The notes below the pieces were generated by a model. That model was not told where the DNA came from and searched no databases. It saw only the letters and a list, made by a program, of their open reading frames with translations. Positions 17,743-64,000 of a stretch of 64,000 nt of DNA are shown here, in pieces; positions within the stretch are counted from its first letter, which is position 1; every line of letters begins with the position of its first letter. The DNA is from Succinatimonas hippei YIT 12066. GTDB lineage: Bacteria; Pseudomonadota; Gammaproteobacteria; Enterobacterales; Succinivibrionaceae. Both the position numbers and the translations under genes were made by a program. The DNA is taken from contig NZ_GL830979.1 of assembly GCF_000188195.1 (NCBI RefSeq), forward strand, positions 1-64,000. The letters run 5' to 3'.

Positions 17743-20361
17743 TTGAAAAATTGTAAAAAAATTTCAGCAATCGCGGTTTTGCTGGCTTTAAGCTCTGCAG
17801 GTCAGGCTGCAGTTTTAAATTTTGATAGAGAAAGTCAGGCGTACCCGGCAGACAATAATCCTATTGCACAGAATGTAAAATGGTTTGGGCCTTCTTTAAA
17901 TAGCGGCAATACCGTAAGGCGAAACGAGGTAAATATCGATGCTAATTTTAGCGGCGGTACGGTTTTTGGAGGTTGGACACAAAGTTCGGTTAATGTTACG
18001 GATAATGAGCTTACTGTTTTAGACGGTGCTAAAGTCGGCAGTGCTATAGGCGGATTTAATTCAAATGCCTCAGCGATGTATAACATGGTGACGGTAAAAG
18101 GTCAGGCACAGAATGTTATCGGCGGATATACGACGGAAAGGGGCTATGCTCGCGGCAACAGTGTCGAAATTGCATCTAATGCTTCAGTTTCCGATAGTGT
18201 TTTAGGCGGTTATGCACAAAAAGCCTTCGCAGACAGCAATGAGGTTATTGTTAACGGCGATGTTAAGGGCAAAGTATACGGAGGTTTCGGTTCTAACGGA
18301 GCTCAAAGCAATTACGTAGAAATAAACGGTACAGTTGGCGATGCTTCTTATGCCGGGTATGCGCAAAACGGCGACGTCTTATATAACAGCCTTATTTTAA
18401 ATTCAGAGGCACACGCTTTAGATGTTTTTGGGGCCTATGCTAAAAGCGGTACGGCTGCATCTAATTTTATAACCGTGAATGAAGGAGCTGAAGCTAAAAG
18501 TGTAATAGGCGCTAAAAGTGACAATGGCGACGTTTCATACAATACCGTTGATGTAGCAGGTCATGCAGGCAAAATTGTAGGTGGTGAAAGTGCCGGCGGC
18601 AAAGCCCTTAATAATTCGGTTACGTTAAATGCAGGTTCACTTGTTTCAACAAATGTAATTGCCGGAAGCGGAACGACGCAGGCTTTTGGCAACCAGCTGC
18701 GAATAAAGCAAGGCGCAGAAGTTTCGGGGAATGCTTATGCCGGATTTTCCGCAAACGGTGCTGCCGGCTACAACTATATGGAAGTAAACGGCAGCGTTGC
18801 AAGCGCAGCCGGCGGCTGGAGTAATACAGGCAGCGCGGATTTTAACTACGTCAACGTGCTTGATGATGCTAAGATCAACGGCACTGTTTACGGCGGAAGA
18901 GGCGAAATAAGTGCATCCCACAATACCATATTAATTAAAAATGCTAGCGTTTCAGGGGATGTTTACGGCGGCTACGGGCAAAAAGCGCAGTCAAATATCG
19001 TTATTTTGTCAGGTAAAACTGATGTTGATGGTACAGTATTTGGTGGCGGAAACGGAAACAACGCTATCGATGACTACAATATTATAAGTGCTGAAGGAAA
19101 TGTTCAGGTTCAAAGCATAGAAGGTTTTAAGGTCTTAAAGCTTACGGTTAACGAGAATAATATTAAAGTAAGCCATGATAAAGAAGGTGTTAGAAACCAG
19201 TACATTCTTGAGGTCAGTAAACATATTGATCTTAAAAATAAAACTTTAGTCGTAGCTTCGCATAAGGTTGATCCTAAACAGGATATTGCCCTTTTATGGT
19301 CGGATGGATATATTCATACTGATGATCACACCGTGGTGGAGGGTGATAATACCTTTGTGTTCAAGCGCTGGACTTCAAAGGATAGTCATGATTATGAGAA
19401 TGAGCTTGGGGTTGAAGATATCGTCAACGATGATGATTTTATTGAGGAAACGGTAATAAGCCCGCAGGCGCGAACTTTATCTAAAGCCGCATTAAGCTCA
19501 ACGGCATTAATTAAGCAAGGAGCTGATTTTATTATTGAGGATGCTAAGAGTGCAGCATTGAGATCGCTTGAAGGAAGAAACGGTACTGCTTTATTTGCTG
19601 CAGTATCAGGCAGTTATTTTAACTATGACGGTGACAGTGATTTTTCTTTGCGCGGGTATCATCTTGCGGCAGGCAGTTCCTTTAAATCTGATAATCTTAT
19701 GTGGTCGCTGTTTGCCGAAACCGGCATCGGCAGTGCGAGTTTAAAAGAAGGAGCTGATGTTGACACTGATATAAGTTATGCAGGTTTAGGCGCTTTGGTT
19801 GATTACAGCTTTAACAACGGGATGTATGCTGATGCTGCCGTACGCTTTGGTTATATCAAAACTGATTTTGATGCAGTTTATGAAGAAGATCAGGCTGATT
19901 TTGTCAGCCGGGGCTTTTACGGCAGTATTCAGGCAGGCGGAGGTTACCGCTTTGCTGTAAATGATTTTACTAAAGCTGATATTTACATACGCTATCTGGG
20001 TCTTTATGAAACTTCGGATCGCTTCGGACTTAATAATAAAGATAGTGACAATATGAGCATCGATCCGCGTTTTGCGCATGCCGTACGAGCAGGAGGAGAA
20101 TTTAATTTTAAGCTAAATGCTTGCGTAAGTTTATCAGCAGGAGCCGCTTTAGAACGCAGTTTCGGCTCATCAGTTGAAACCTATGTAAACGGTTATGCAT
20201 TGGATAAGGAAGATTTGGACGGAACTTCTTATATAGGAAGCCTGGGTTTGGATTTTGCCTTAAAAGATTATCCTGACTTTGCGTTAAGCTCCGATCTTCA
20301 TGCGGTAACCGGCGATAGAGATGGCTTGGCGGTGTCACTGGCTGCTATATATAAGTTTTGA
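17743..20361 (+). CDS. Autotransporter (type Va) surface protein
   Basis: An 872-aa surface protein. It starts at TTG 17743 with GGAG 6 nt upstream and encodes a signal peptide (CKKISAIAVLLALSSAGQA). Residues about 60-480 are degenerate repeats of about 24 residues with the pattern GG-(F/Y)-x-n-G-x-A-x-x-N-x-V-x-(V/I)-x-G, probably a beta-helix passenger. Residues about 480-610 form a linker. Residues about 613-872 form the 12-strand translocator barrel, ending in the outer-membrane signature AAIYKF with terminal Phe. No protease or known adhesin motif is visible, so its role (adhesion, aggregation) is a guess. It lies in the accessory block between map and rpsB. Confidence 0.88.
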   Translation: MKNCKKISAIAVLLALSSAGQAAVLNFDRESQAYPADNNPIAQNVKWFGPSLNSGNTVRRNEVNIDANFSGGTVFGGWTQSSVNVTDNELTVLDGAKVGSAIGGFNSNASAMYNMVTVKGQAQNVIGGYTTERGYARGNSVEIASNASVSDSVLGGYAQKAFADSNEVIVNGDVKGKVYGGFGSNGAQSNYVEINGTVGDASYAGYAQNGDVLYNSLILNSEAHALDVFGAYAKSGTAASNFITVNEGAEAKSVIGAKSDNGDVSYNTVDVAGHAGKIVGGESAGGKALNNSVTLNAGSLVSTNVIAGSGTTQAFGNQLRIKQGAEVSGNAYAGFSANGAAGYNYMEVNGSVASAAGGWSNTGSADFNYVNVLDDAKINGTVYGGRGEISASHNTILIKNASVSGDVYGGYGQKAQSNIVILSGKTDVDGTVFGGGNGNNAIDDYNIISAEGNVQVQSIEGFKVLKLTVNENNIKVSHDKEGVRNQYILEVSKHIDLKNKTLVVASHKVDPKQDIALLWSDGYIHTDDHTVVEGDNTFVFKRWTSKDSHDYENELGVEDIVNDDDFIEETVISPQARTLSKAALSSTALIKQGADFIIEDAKSAALRSLEGRNGTALFAAVSGSYFNYDGDSDFSLRGYHLAAGSSFKSDNLMWSLFAETGIGSASLKEGADVDTDISYAGLGALVDYSFNNGMYADAAVRFGYIKTDFDAVYEEDQADFVSRGFYGSIQAGGGYRFAVNDFTKADIYIRYLGLYETSDRFGLNNKDSDNMSIDPRFAHAVRAGGEFNFKLNACVSLSAGAALERSFGSSVETYVNGYALDKEDLDGTSYIGSLGLDFALKDYPDFALSSDLHAVTGDRDGLAVSLAAIYKF

Positions 20362-58071: not shown

Positions 58072-58373
58072 ATATGTTGTTATATAAAGATTAATTTTCA
58101 AAAAAAGCAAGTCTTTTCAATATTATGCAAAGCTGTAAGCATATAAATTAATCTGATTTGAAGAAGTTTATAAATTTTTATGCTGTAATCTCATTTTTTT
58201 CTTTTTAATGCACAATAATGTTACATTTTTTAACCTGATTTTGTGATGTTTATTGTGTTTTATTAAAAAATCATACGTCTTAATGTTTCTTTTTTCTTCA
58301 CCTGTTAAAATTTATTTTGGAAGATGGTTAATTAATAATTCCGATATTCAAACACAGTACGAGGCAAATTTTT

Positions 58374-61300
58374 ATGAGACTGACCCGTAGTGCACTTAAT
58401 ATGCTTAAAAGTGCATACAAAGCTATTCTGTTAAATGAATTTATTAAAAAAATCACTGTAGGGGGGGGGTAATTCACAATCTTCATTAGAAGAAAATACC
58501 GACAAACAAAATATTAAATCACGTCTTGCTTTTATACTTCTTCCTTTATCTTTAGCATTATTCAGTTCATCGTCTACTGCAGAAATAATTAAATGGGGAA
58601 ATTTTAGTGGTGGTCTCGGTACAACAATAGATTTAGATACAGGGATAGATCCTAATCTTGGATTCACTATTGGAAACGATAAACCGGCATATAATTATGC
58701 CTCTGATATTGTATGGATAGATGATGATGGTCCGTATACAATTACTTTTTCAGATGGGGCAACACTCAATGATACAGATGGAACTTTATTATTAAATCAG
58801 ACTGTAGGTGATAGCTATAAATTTATTTCAGCAGAATCTGGTATTGCCTTTTATGGAAATGGTATCCAAGCTAAGGATTTTAATTTACAAATAAAAGGGA
58901 AAACGAACAATAAATTTTCCCAAAACATCAGTCAAAACAGTACTAAAGTTGCTACAGCAACATACTCTATAGGTAATGAAGCAGTAAATCTTCTTAAAAG
59001 CAATCAAGATTTTTTTAATAAGTACGGTCATAACTTATTAATTACTAATGAAGACGGCGTAGAAAGAATTATTTTTGATGGAAAGGACTATGATAGCTCT
59101 ACAGGTATCCGTGTTGATTCAACAACTACAATCCTGAGACCTTCATTTGGGACAGAAGGGATACTTGAAGATGTGTTAGAAGGTACTGATACTAGCAATC
59201 ATGGTTTTAGCACTTTATCTGTTCTCACAGAATTAAACATAGAATCAGGACAGATATTATCACTTGCAAGCACTACAACTAATAGAAATAATAATACCAT
59301 GGCTGCTCATTTAACAGGTGATGGTGGTGTTAAATACACAGGCTCAGGTATTTTAAACATAAACTCATGGAATAACGATACGGAGAATGACTATAAAGGA
59401 GATACAACGGTAGAAGGGCAAGATTCAGACCATCAACTTACGGTAAGGATGTATCGTGAAAAGAGTTTCGGAAACTCTTCAAATGTAAGCATTACTAACG
59501 CCAATCTTGAATTCTTAAGAGATACACCATCATTTAACGTATCAAACACCTTATCTCTCGTGGAGAACGCTTCCATTAAAGCAGCTAGAGAAGAAAACGG
59601 ACAGATTGTCGATAACGGAAATCTTACTTCTATAACTGCTACAAATTATAAATTCGGCTCAGAATCCGTTGACACAGCTCTTTCAAATATAGATATTGCA
59701 GTAAACAGCAATACTCTTAATTTTAATCAAAACGGTAAAGTTTCGTTCTCCAATATAAAAGAAAGTAATGACTCTGCATCAGAACTTATATATTCATTTG
59801 CAAGCGGTTCCGGAACCGGTAGTTTAGATGAGGTAACACTCAGTAATTCTAAAATCAGCTATGACGAAAGCATACAAATTGCAACAGAAAAAACCTTGTT
59901 ACAAAATGCATCTAAGCTTACAGTAAGTGCAGGCAGATATCATGATCAACTCGGTAATTCAGTTGAATTCGATGCAAGATCAACCGATACATCTTCTGAT
60001 TATAATCGTCTGGAGCTTAATTCAGAGTCAAATATAACATTAGAGAATATTGTTTTTTCCGGCGGCAATCAATATGATCGCATTTCATTAACCGGTTTAG
60101 GCGGAACTCAAAGCTCTGTAACCATTGAGAATACAGCTGATTTTACTAATTATAACGGTTCTATTTCTCTTACCAATTCAAGTTTTGATTTAACTACTGA
60201 CTTAGCTAATCGCTTATTTAACAACAATAACTCATACCATGGCGGTTTATTGCTTGCAGATAGCTCTAAAGTATCAATATCCGGCAATTCCTCTGTAAAT
60301 GTTAATAATTTCGGTTGGAGCGCAAATTCTGCCGTCGGCGGCGTTCTTGATCTTTCGGGATTTAACTTTGATCAGGTAGATGACAATATTGCAGCACTTA
60401 AAGTAAACGGAACCTACTATGTAGGCAATACAACTGCCACCGTAAAAATTGATGAGTCGGACTTTTCGTTTAACGGTGCTGCACAAACCGATACTCCGAT
60501 TTTCGATATAGTACTTCAAGATGCGCAGCTTCTTATAGAATTACAACAAGGGGATAGATATAACAACGTAACTTTAATTGATAGCAGCGATCAACAAATA
60601 ACTCAAGGAGTACTTACTACTGAATATATCAGTAATGCCGACGAAAACAAACAGAATATTGCCGCCTTGGGAACATGGGGCATGACAACAAATTATCCTT
60701 CTGATGATACGAATACGAAATACGGATTATGGTTGGGATACGGACTTCAGTCCCTTGAATTAAGAAACGGTCATAATGAAAGTGATGCGTCTCCGGCAGC
60801 AAACGAAGCCTTAGACTTATCATCATCATTTATGGCAATATCCTCTGAAACAGCCGCAAATAATCGACTTGCAACTACAATCACAGGTCATGGTATTCTG
60901 TGGTATCAAAATAATGAAGTACTGGGAGATACCGCAAGTGAAATTTATGTTTCAGGGAATAATTCTTATACCGGAATTACCTTAGTTGACAGTGACATCA
61001 AGCTGCACACCCAGTCATCTACCGGCTTAGGAAATTCATCTTTAGTTTTAGTCGGCAATAATTCGGACTTTTACTTCGGAGAAGGAGCTGAAGGTGTAAA
61101 GCTGTCTTTAACCGGACTTGCATCTGATAGCGGAATTCACTCAATAAATATAGGTCAGGCTGATATTCTTACCGTTTTAGGAAATAACTCTTTATTGGCT
61201 AAAGATTTAATTAAATCTATAGAAGAAAAGAATATTTCAACTACATTAATTCAAGGTAATGTTCTTGGTGAAAAAACATCATTAACCGGCAGCGGTACCT

Positions 61301-64000
61301 TACAAATAGGAAATGAATCTTCCGATAAGATAGCTCTAACTTTCAACTCAGCTTCAACCTTAAACGATTTTAACGGCACAGTTAAACTTGTTGGAACTAA
61401 GTCTAAAGTTACTATTAAAGGAGAAGATGTCCTTCAAAACGGTAAATATGAAGGATCTAAAGATGATGTTGTAGAGATTAATACTGATGTGCAAATTGCT
61501 GCAGATAAAGCAGATTTCAGCAAGTTTGAGGGTGTTTTAGATTTAGCAGAAGTAACTGCTACGGTTACATCCACCCTTGATGCGCTAAACAGAAGTGCTG
61601 TTTTAGATCTGGAAAATACAACATTTGTTTTAGATTCCGTAGCAAATAACGGCACTACCGCACCTTTTGATAACACTATTAAAGGAACAGGCACACTCAA
61701 TTTCCAACATACAACCGATGTTAGCATGGACTACACTTCTAAGCTGACAGGTTTTAGCGGTGAGCTGGATCTTGACGACACTTCAAAAGTCACAATTAAA
61801 GACCTTGCTAACATTAATTCCACTATTAGTGCAGATCTTGAGAACGGCACATTGCTTTCTTTAATAACTTCAGCAACTGATGCCGTTGATTGGTCAGGGT
61901 TAACCGGCTCAGGTACGGTTGAACTTGAAAATACTGATGGAAAAACAGCTCTTACTTTCTTTGACGTTAATGAAGGATTTACCGGAACTGCGCATCTTAC
62001 AAACTATACGTTTGATTTCGGTGGAGATGATGTTGAAACTAATCCGAATTCTCAATTAGTTTCTCAAGCCGCAATCGTTGCTGAAAACACCGATTTAACC
62101 GTAACTTCGGCAATTACCTCTCAAGGAATGGAACTTGCCGGAGATTCTTCGCTTAAATTTGAATCTGAAGGAGATATAAAGCTTGGAGGTGATATTTCAA
62201 GTCTGATTACCATGGCGGAGGAAAAAACATTTACAATTTCAGGAAATAATAAAATCATTATTAATCCTGAAACGGTAAATTTAGTTACCTCGGCAATTGC
62301 CGAGGCCGGAGCTCCCGATACTCCCGCAAATTTAGGAATTCTCGGTACTGTCAACTATCTGAATAATGTCGTTGATTCGCGTTATTTGACCTTAGTAAAA
62401 GGCTCTGTTAACGCGACGGAAGGCAGTCTTACTTTCGTGGATGAAGACGGCAATGAAATTGACACCTCCACAGGAATTTCTGTCTCCGTAACGGAAAACG
62501 GACAATCTGTTGCCGATATCGGCTACGGAACAAAATTTAAAACAGGAGCTGCCGGTCAGGATTTATTTGTAAGCGGCGGTGCCGGTAGCCTTGCATTACG
62601 TCAATCAACCGAGCTTAACGCTGAAAAAGAAATCGGATCTGATTTTAATCTTAATGTTACCGTCACTGCAGATCCTGATGTTGATGTCGTAATTGCCGGT
62701 AATAAAGCTTTAACTTTATCAAAATCAAACAACAGCTTTACCGGCTCCGTTACAGTTAACGAAGAGGCAACTTTAAACTTATCTTCAACAAATGCGTTAG
62801 GCGGTAATACTGCCGAAACCTCAGAAACCACTGCGCTTATCGTTAACGGAAAAGTTAATGCAGAAGCAAATCAAAAAGCTCAGACTTTAGTGCTTAATAA
62901 CAGTGGAGAGTTAAACCTTAACGAAAATTCTTTAAGTTTAACTAAAGAGAAGGGGCAATCGTCCTTGTCCGGTAAATTAACTGGTTCAGATAATTCCGCT
63001 TTAAAGCTTGAACAAGGAGCGTCTTTAACAGTTTACGACAGTGCTGATATTTCCGGAATGAAAGGCACCTATGATTTAACTGCAGGAGACAATACATTAG
63101 AGTTTGCTTTTAATTCAAATAAAGCTATTTCAAACAGCTCAATTAAAGGCGGCAATATCGTTAAATCAGGAGCAGGATTACTTACTATCGGCTTTGATAT
63201 GCTTTCAAGCGAAGATGCAAGCTTATCTTCTCTTGAGGTTAAACAAGGTGCTGTAGCATTCGATGGCTGGAACGATAATTCGCTTAATTTACGCAGCGTA
63301 AATCTTGAGAGCAACACCGTTTTTAATTTCACTGGAAAAGAGCTTAACGCAAAAGACGATTTTGCCGCAAACAATGCTACGGTTAACTTCTTTGCAAATT
63401 CTTCTTTAGATCATGTTATAACCGGAGCGGTTTCAGGTTCGGGCAATACCTTTGATTTAACCGCTGACGGTAGCTTCAATAGCCAAAGTTTGACAATTGA
63501 TAAACTTGCATCTGGCAGTGACAATACTTTCGTTGTAGGTATCGACAATACCGGAGCAATTCCTCAAGTTTCGCAAATCATTATTAATGAAGCCGAAGGC
63601 ACTGCTACTCAGAAGGTTGATTTAGCTTATGTCCACGGCGATTATGATTTTGCCGATACGTTGACCTTTGCCACAGTCAAAGGAACTAATGCACAAGGTG
63701 TCGAATTTGTAGGTAGTGATGAATCGCTTCCTTCAAATGTCGTAAGAACTGACAGAACTACCGTCATATCCGCTATTACTCCAGCTTACAGCATTATAAG
63801 TAATAATAACGCTGACCAATCCGTAAATTGGGGCTTTGAACGTAATACCGCATATGATGAAATTTCAATTGTCGGTGACGTTATGACCGATATGGCAAAT
63901 ACCGTATACGCATCAAATGTTTATCTTGATACTTTAAATAAGCGTATGGGTGAGGCGCGTTACGTTAACGGTGAAGATTACGGTGTCTGGGCACGCGTCC
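58374..64000 (+). CDS. Giant autotransporter, phase-off, partial
   Basis: ATG 58374 (GAGG 9 nt upstream) encodes MRLTRSALNMLKSAYK..KKITVGGG and meets a stop directly after nine G (58461-58469). One G fewer or two more continues into NSQSSLEEN, a signal peptide (KSRLAFILLPLSLALFSSSSTA) and an open frame reaching the window end, over 1,800 codons. The passenger holds autotransporter-associated beta-strand repeats (VKYTGSGILNI; SGNNSYTGITLVDSDIKL; KSNNSFTGSVTVNEEATL). The end, TLNKRMGEARYVNGEDYGVWARV, is the usual opening of the translocator barrel. An extended N-terminus before the hydrophobic core is typical of large autotransporters. Function probably adhesion. Confidence 0.88.
58461..58469 (+). 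repeat. Poly-G tract, probable phase-variation switch
   Basis: Nine consecutive G in AT-rich surroundings, 29 codons into the giant autotransporter and before its signal peptide. At nine G the frame is closed; at eight or eleven it is open. Slipped-strand changes in such tracts switch surface genes in Neisseria, Campylobacter and Helicobacter. Confidence 0.8.

Follow-up and report, generated by a model that had tools for sequence, protein, structure and literature searches.

In Succinatimonas hippei YIT 12066, a run of nine guanines stands between the first codons of a giant gene and the signal peptide that the rest of the gene encodes, and the assembled sequence places the two parts in different reading frames. 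This arrangement raises the question of whether the gene has been lost, misread in assembly, or is expressed by way of the tract itself. Phase variation through simple repeats has been studied mainly in pathogens. The original prediction on the window (the whole 64,000-nucleotide stretch of DNA analysed here) was that the locus is a contingency gene held in the OFF phase. We give a probability of roughly 0.9 to the reading that it is a translational phase-variation switch operated by slippage of the tract. Here, we describe the evidence from this locus, its genome, and related genomes that bears on this reading.

The elements of the locus follow one another on the forward strand. The sequence GAGG (58361..58364), 9 bases 5′ of the ATG at 58374, resembles a Shine-Dalgarno element and is equally placed in all three paralogues of the gene. 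The ATG begins a leader of 29 codons (58374..58460, MRLTRSALNMLKSAYKAILLNEFIKKITV), an N-terminal extension conserved across giant surface proteins of the Succinivibrionaceae, which runs into the proposed switch, a G9 tract (58461..58469, GGGGGGGGG) that is out of frame as assembled. This tract is the longest G run in the window, all others being five bases or shorter. It is followed by an approximate signal peptide (58471..58581, NSQSSLEENTDKQNIKSRLAFILLPLSLALFSSSSTA), read by eye from its hydrophobic core and SSTA/E-like site and reached only in the in-frame state, and by an autotransporter passenger (58582..63414) that has no Pfam family and in which nothing convincing as a known passenger domain was found. 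The barrel region begins at 63415 (TIGR01414, 63415..64000) and continues beyond the window, with PF03797 at C41:64006-64704 and the end of the gene at about 64770. The gene separated by the G9 tract thus encodes a type Va autotransporter, since the protein ends in a C-terminal PF03797/TIGR01414 barrel; the Hbp and EspP barrels in the PDB match this barrel by sequence. At about 6.4 kb, with 2099 open codons 3′ of the tract, the gene agrees with the giant autotransporter of more than 5.6 kb that had been predicted. A second PF03797 autotransporter in the window (17743-20361) carries no G tract of six or more bases. The C121 autotransporter (G000, L024) is also tractless, and its N-terminus, KQTVRAKSMLKKAYLAIL, resembles a short leader fused straight to a signal peptide.

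The reading frames around the tract leave a single route into the passenger. Read from the ATG at 58374, the assembled G9 yields MRLTRSALNMLKSAYKAILLNEFIKKITVGGG and then TAA at 58470, one additional G leads to TAG within eleven codons of the same frame, and only tract lengths of 3n+2 open the frame. By this arithmetic, lengthening or shortening the tract switches translation from a truncated peptide to the full open frame and back. A TAG (58459..58461) that overlaps the tract by its G blocks the downstream frame on its 5′ side, and the first ATG, GTG, or TTG in that frame comes no earlier than codon 235, far beyond the signal peptide. The signal peptide is therefore translatable only through the tract. 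The position of the tract, the frame arithmetic, and the closure of the downstream frame are all as originally predicted; the phase-OFF state stands insofar as the assembled G9 is out of frame, and "OFF" here describes the assembly consensus only.

The prediction had also leaned on rarity, holding that a run of nine G was very unlikely to arise by chance, and this argument does not survive a dinucleotide-preserving shuffle, under which GGGGGGG is expected 2.5 times per 64 kb and is observed 3 times. Run length alone is therefore a weak argument. Runs of eight or more G were likewise rejected as a sign of switching in themselves, as relatives carry many of them in ordinary or intergenic places. 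What the prediction overlooked was that the gene is one of a set of four, and that position weighs more than rarity.

This set emerged from searches of the 2.31-Mb genome by pattern and by profile. The genome contains five runs of at least nine G and no G8 runs. One of the five lies at the end of contig C20, and each of the other four lies directly 3′ of a copy of the leader and ahead of a signal peptide. The genome has four copies of the leader in all, exactly at those four tracts, and random placement of four tracts behind four leaders has a probability of about 1e-16. It is this genome-wide coincidence of tract and leader that carries the proof. The tracts are G9 at the window gene (C41), G11 on C44, G10 on C49, and G9 on C120, with frame offsets of +1, -1, +1, and +1, respectively, so that none of the four genes is in frame. 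Lengths of 9, 11, 10, and 9 with unlike offsets are as expected from drifting tracts. Given that a third of the frames are open, finding four OFF copies of four, and hence no ON copy in the genome assembly, has a probability near 0.2. In every case a hydrophobic signal peptide follows the tract, no ATG, GTG, or TTG stands between the two, and a long frame is open 3′ of the tract: 2099 codons on C41, 1480 on C44 and 1526 on C49 (each reaching the contig end), and 1711 on C120. A homopolymer is regarded as a contingency tract when it is about 8 bases or longer and its place in a coding region or promoter is not random, and the present tracts have this length and this placement. With leader, tract, signal peptide, passenger, and barrel all present, and with three paralogues and genes of the Sutterella group built alike, the contingency-gene design that had been proposed is supported.

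The leader is older and more widespread than the switch. The differences among its four copies fall mostly at third codon positions, and this bias, together with its conservation over the family, identifies the leader by sequence as genuine protein-coding DNA. Its family consensus is MKQTxxALxMLxxAYRAVLxNAYxKGLA, and of the 57 family genomes, 29 have it at the start of surface-protein-like open reading frames, most of which span from hundreds to several thousand codons, with up to 28 copies per genome. Among the approximately 150 leader matches listed from the 57 genomes, the frame is shorter than 65 codons only in the four genes described here, in one of G017, and in one of G002 that ends at a contig edge. 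The only match listed beyond this genome that is cut early inside a contig is thus the G017 orthologue, from Ca. Avisuccinivibrio stercorigallinarum, which has GGTGGGGGG at the tract site and a second frameshift downstream; it looks like a broken switch in a gene that is now decaying. The unbroken leader frames elsewhere in the family indicate that the leader is old and that the switched state was acquired locally upon it. A query with the leader against genome contigs gave no relative confirmed by tblastn, and exact leader DNA had no match in viral contigs. Leader-bearing surface proteins form a large and seemingly unnamed family; in G010, G004, and G003 the leader's copy number has risen to 17-28 per genome, often in tandem giant genes (for example at G010:C38, G004:C27, and G003:C5).

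A similar layout occurs outside the family. A scan with the barrel alignment returned three named relatives, including Sutterella massiliensis An829, of a beta-proteobacterial line, whose autotransporter barrel is 42% identical to that of the window gene. In this relative a short leader is followed by an in-frame G11 tract and then the signal peptide, giving an open reading frame of 1738 codons, that is, an ON state. A second An829 autotransporter carries an out-of-frame G11 between a true ESPR (PF13018, 38 bits) and the signal peptide, and ESPR loci in 12 Sutterella genomes provided further Burkholderiales tracts of the same layout, two of them G8 and OFF and one G10 and in frame. A wider sample of Sutterella's family added two OFF tracts separating ESPR from signal peptide, one G10 and one G8, as well as two out-of-frame G9 tracts that lie within the signal peptide or at its end. 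In the set of 12 Sutterella genomes, 12 of 30 ESPR loci have a tract between 400 bases before and 300 bases after the start codon, as against one such run in the remaining 70 kb of these loci. Two Sutterella paralogues have flanks that are 93-95% identical and tracts of 9 and 11, which indicates that such tracts change faster than their surroundings. Additionally, in nine other Sutterella genes a G or C homopolymer of 8-11 bases is found in the 400 bases 5′ of the start codon. Upstream tracts of this kind, 74-177 bases before the start, were noted in the ESPR autotransporters L124, L130, L132, L134, L135, L136, L141, and L144, as if a promoter or leader region were phase-variable too.

The leader of the Succinivibrionaceae was considered as an ESPR and rejected: the 28-residue leader of C120 has no Pfam match, and the family leader has no profile similarity to the ESPRs of Sutterella. 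It nevertheless occupies the ESPR position, so a switch of one kind has come to stand behind two distinct N-terminal extensions. Gut bacteria of the Succinivibrionaceae and the Sutterella group may well share a large, undescribed phase-variable set, in which poly-G where the signal peptide joins its N-terminal extension (an ESPR, or the Succinivibrionaceae leader, which is unrelated to it) serves time and again to switch giant surface proteins. The device would have been acquired separately by each group or transferred from one to the other, and every leader-bearing autotransporter found in the S. hippei lineage would be under it; we hold this wider proposal to be somewhat better than even. 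Since the position recurs in two groups whose leaders differ, convergence or transfer can be tested.

Three other explanations would also place the leader and the passenger in different frames. In the first, the DNA would be fixed and, through programmed ribosomal frameshifting or slippage during transcription, a share of the ribosomes or mRNAs would always join leader to passenger. G runs can indeed slip in transcription or translation, and the region of the C49 tract folds more stably than its shuffles (z -2.1); the other three tract regions fold little better than theirs (z -1.2, 0.2, and 0.1), and no RNA element is consistent across the four genes. A programmed event is also at odds with the unlike offsets that the paralogues would require (three +1 and one -1), with the in-frame copies among Sutterella-group genes, and with the leader genes elsewhere in the family that are read through without a slip, and we consider it improbable.

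An error of sequencing or assembly, with the true tract in frame and the gene always ON, would be natural at homopolymers, the usual site of indel errors, and the finding in S. hippei rests on one draft assembly. Such an error would have to have struck four independent loci, relatives from other assemblies, some with contigs of megabase size, show both frame states, and long G runs at one shared site would be unstable in any case; we regard this account as even less probable. The least probable in our judgement is that the genes are decaying pseudogenes whose frames are permanently lost. All four copies are out of frame, and the stercorigallinarum orthologue, with its interrupted tract and second frameshift, offers a precedent, but in each of the four genes the downstream codons, 1480 to 2099 of them, remain open and free of further lesions, and a lesion confined to one homopolymer in each of four genes is unlike the pattern of pseudogenes.

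Phase variation through the tract remains the favoured explanation, and from the anatomy of the genes, the placement of the tracts, and their frame states we strongly infer that switching occurs. During replication, slipped-strand mispairing at the G tract would shift its length by one or more bases. At one length in three the leader would be in frame with the signal peptide and passenger, and an autotransporter of about 2100 residues would then be made and displayed, whereas at an out-of-frame length translation would stop a few codons past the tract. The tracts of S. hippei presumably change length at a high rate, the protein of the window gene is predicted to be displayed at the surface, and its passenger would probably act as an adhesin or antigen. 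As the four genes lie at separate loci, cells of one population would show a mosaic of surface states, and the surface of these gut bacteria should differ from one cell to the next. Metagenome reads that already exist allow a direct test of switching. Annotation pipelines will label such genes as frameshifted and drop them.

The homopolymer of NalP in Neisseria sits 3′ of the signal peptide, whereas that of the window gene sits 5′ of it. Switching by homopolymers is a long-known mechanism, as in capD, NalP, and the pili of Bifidobacterium breve; the present loci extend it to a lineage for which no report was found, place the tract where an N-terminal signal extension meets the signal peptide, and bring a full set of genes under one device. 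NalP is likewise a type Va autotransporter with a coding homopolymer of similar length, a genic C(9-13) tract (PMC5953494). Campylobacter capD has poly-G inside its coding sequence, and CapC and CapD resemble the proteins described here as autotransporters with poly-G at a conserved position, but they belong to another lineage and are without the Succinivibrionaceae leader; much of the inactivation of capC and capD was found to reflect lineage decay rather than tract length (PMC7168839). In B. breve, a gut commensal, an intragenic G-tract splits the first surface gene of a sortase-pilus locus into two open reading frames, and maximum-depth sequencing demonstrated replication slippage that joins them (PMC9187656), although these are Gram-positive pilus genes and not autotransporters. 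The autotransporters of Sutterella and its relatives found here share the poly-G between N-terminal extension and signal peptide, differing in that most have an ESPR (PF13018) as leader and that tracts also occur 5′ of the start codon. No report of such phase variation in Succinivibrionaceae or Sutterella was found in the literature, where papers that bring up both Sutterella and phase variation refer to either one no more than once or twice. A set of such switches is thereby placed in little-studied gut anaerobes.

Poly-G also divides genes of other kinds in relatives of S. hippei. Tandem arrays of methyltransferase genes resembling type III Mod (PF01555) comprise five genes at L087 (G007:C90:1-12742), three at L088 (G001:C23), and two at L090 (G005:C16), and match Mod and EcoP15I modification subunits in the PDB. 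Each gene is split by a tract of G8-G11 about 180 codons before its end, three being in frame and seven out of frame, and on this sequence pattern the arrays are candidate multi-gene phasevarions of the Succinivibrionaceae. Mixed frames at poly-G in tandem mod genes of the same family were counted in favour of switching. Further genes split by poly-G lie at L091 (G003:C7), L092 (G003:C14), and L096 (G008:C167), and comprise a tandem methyltransferase-like pair with G9 and G8, a tandem AMP-ligase-like pair with G9 and G11, and another methyltransferase-like gene with G9.
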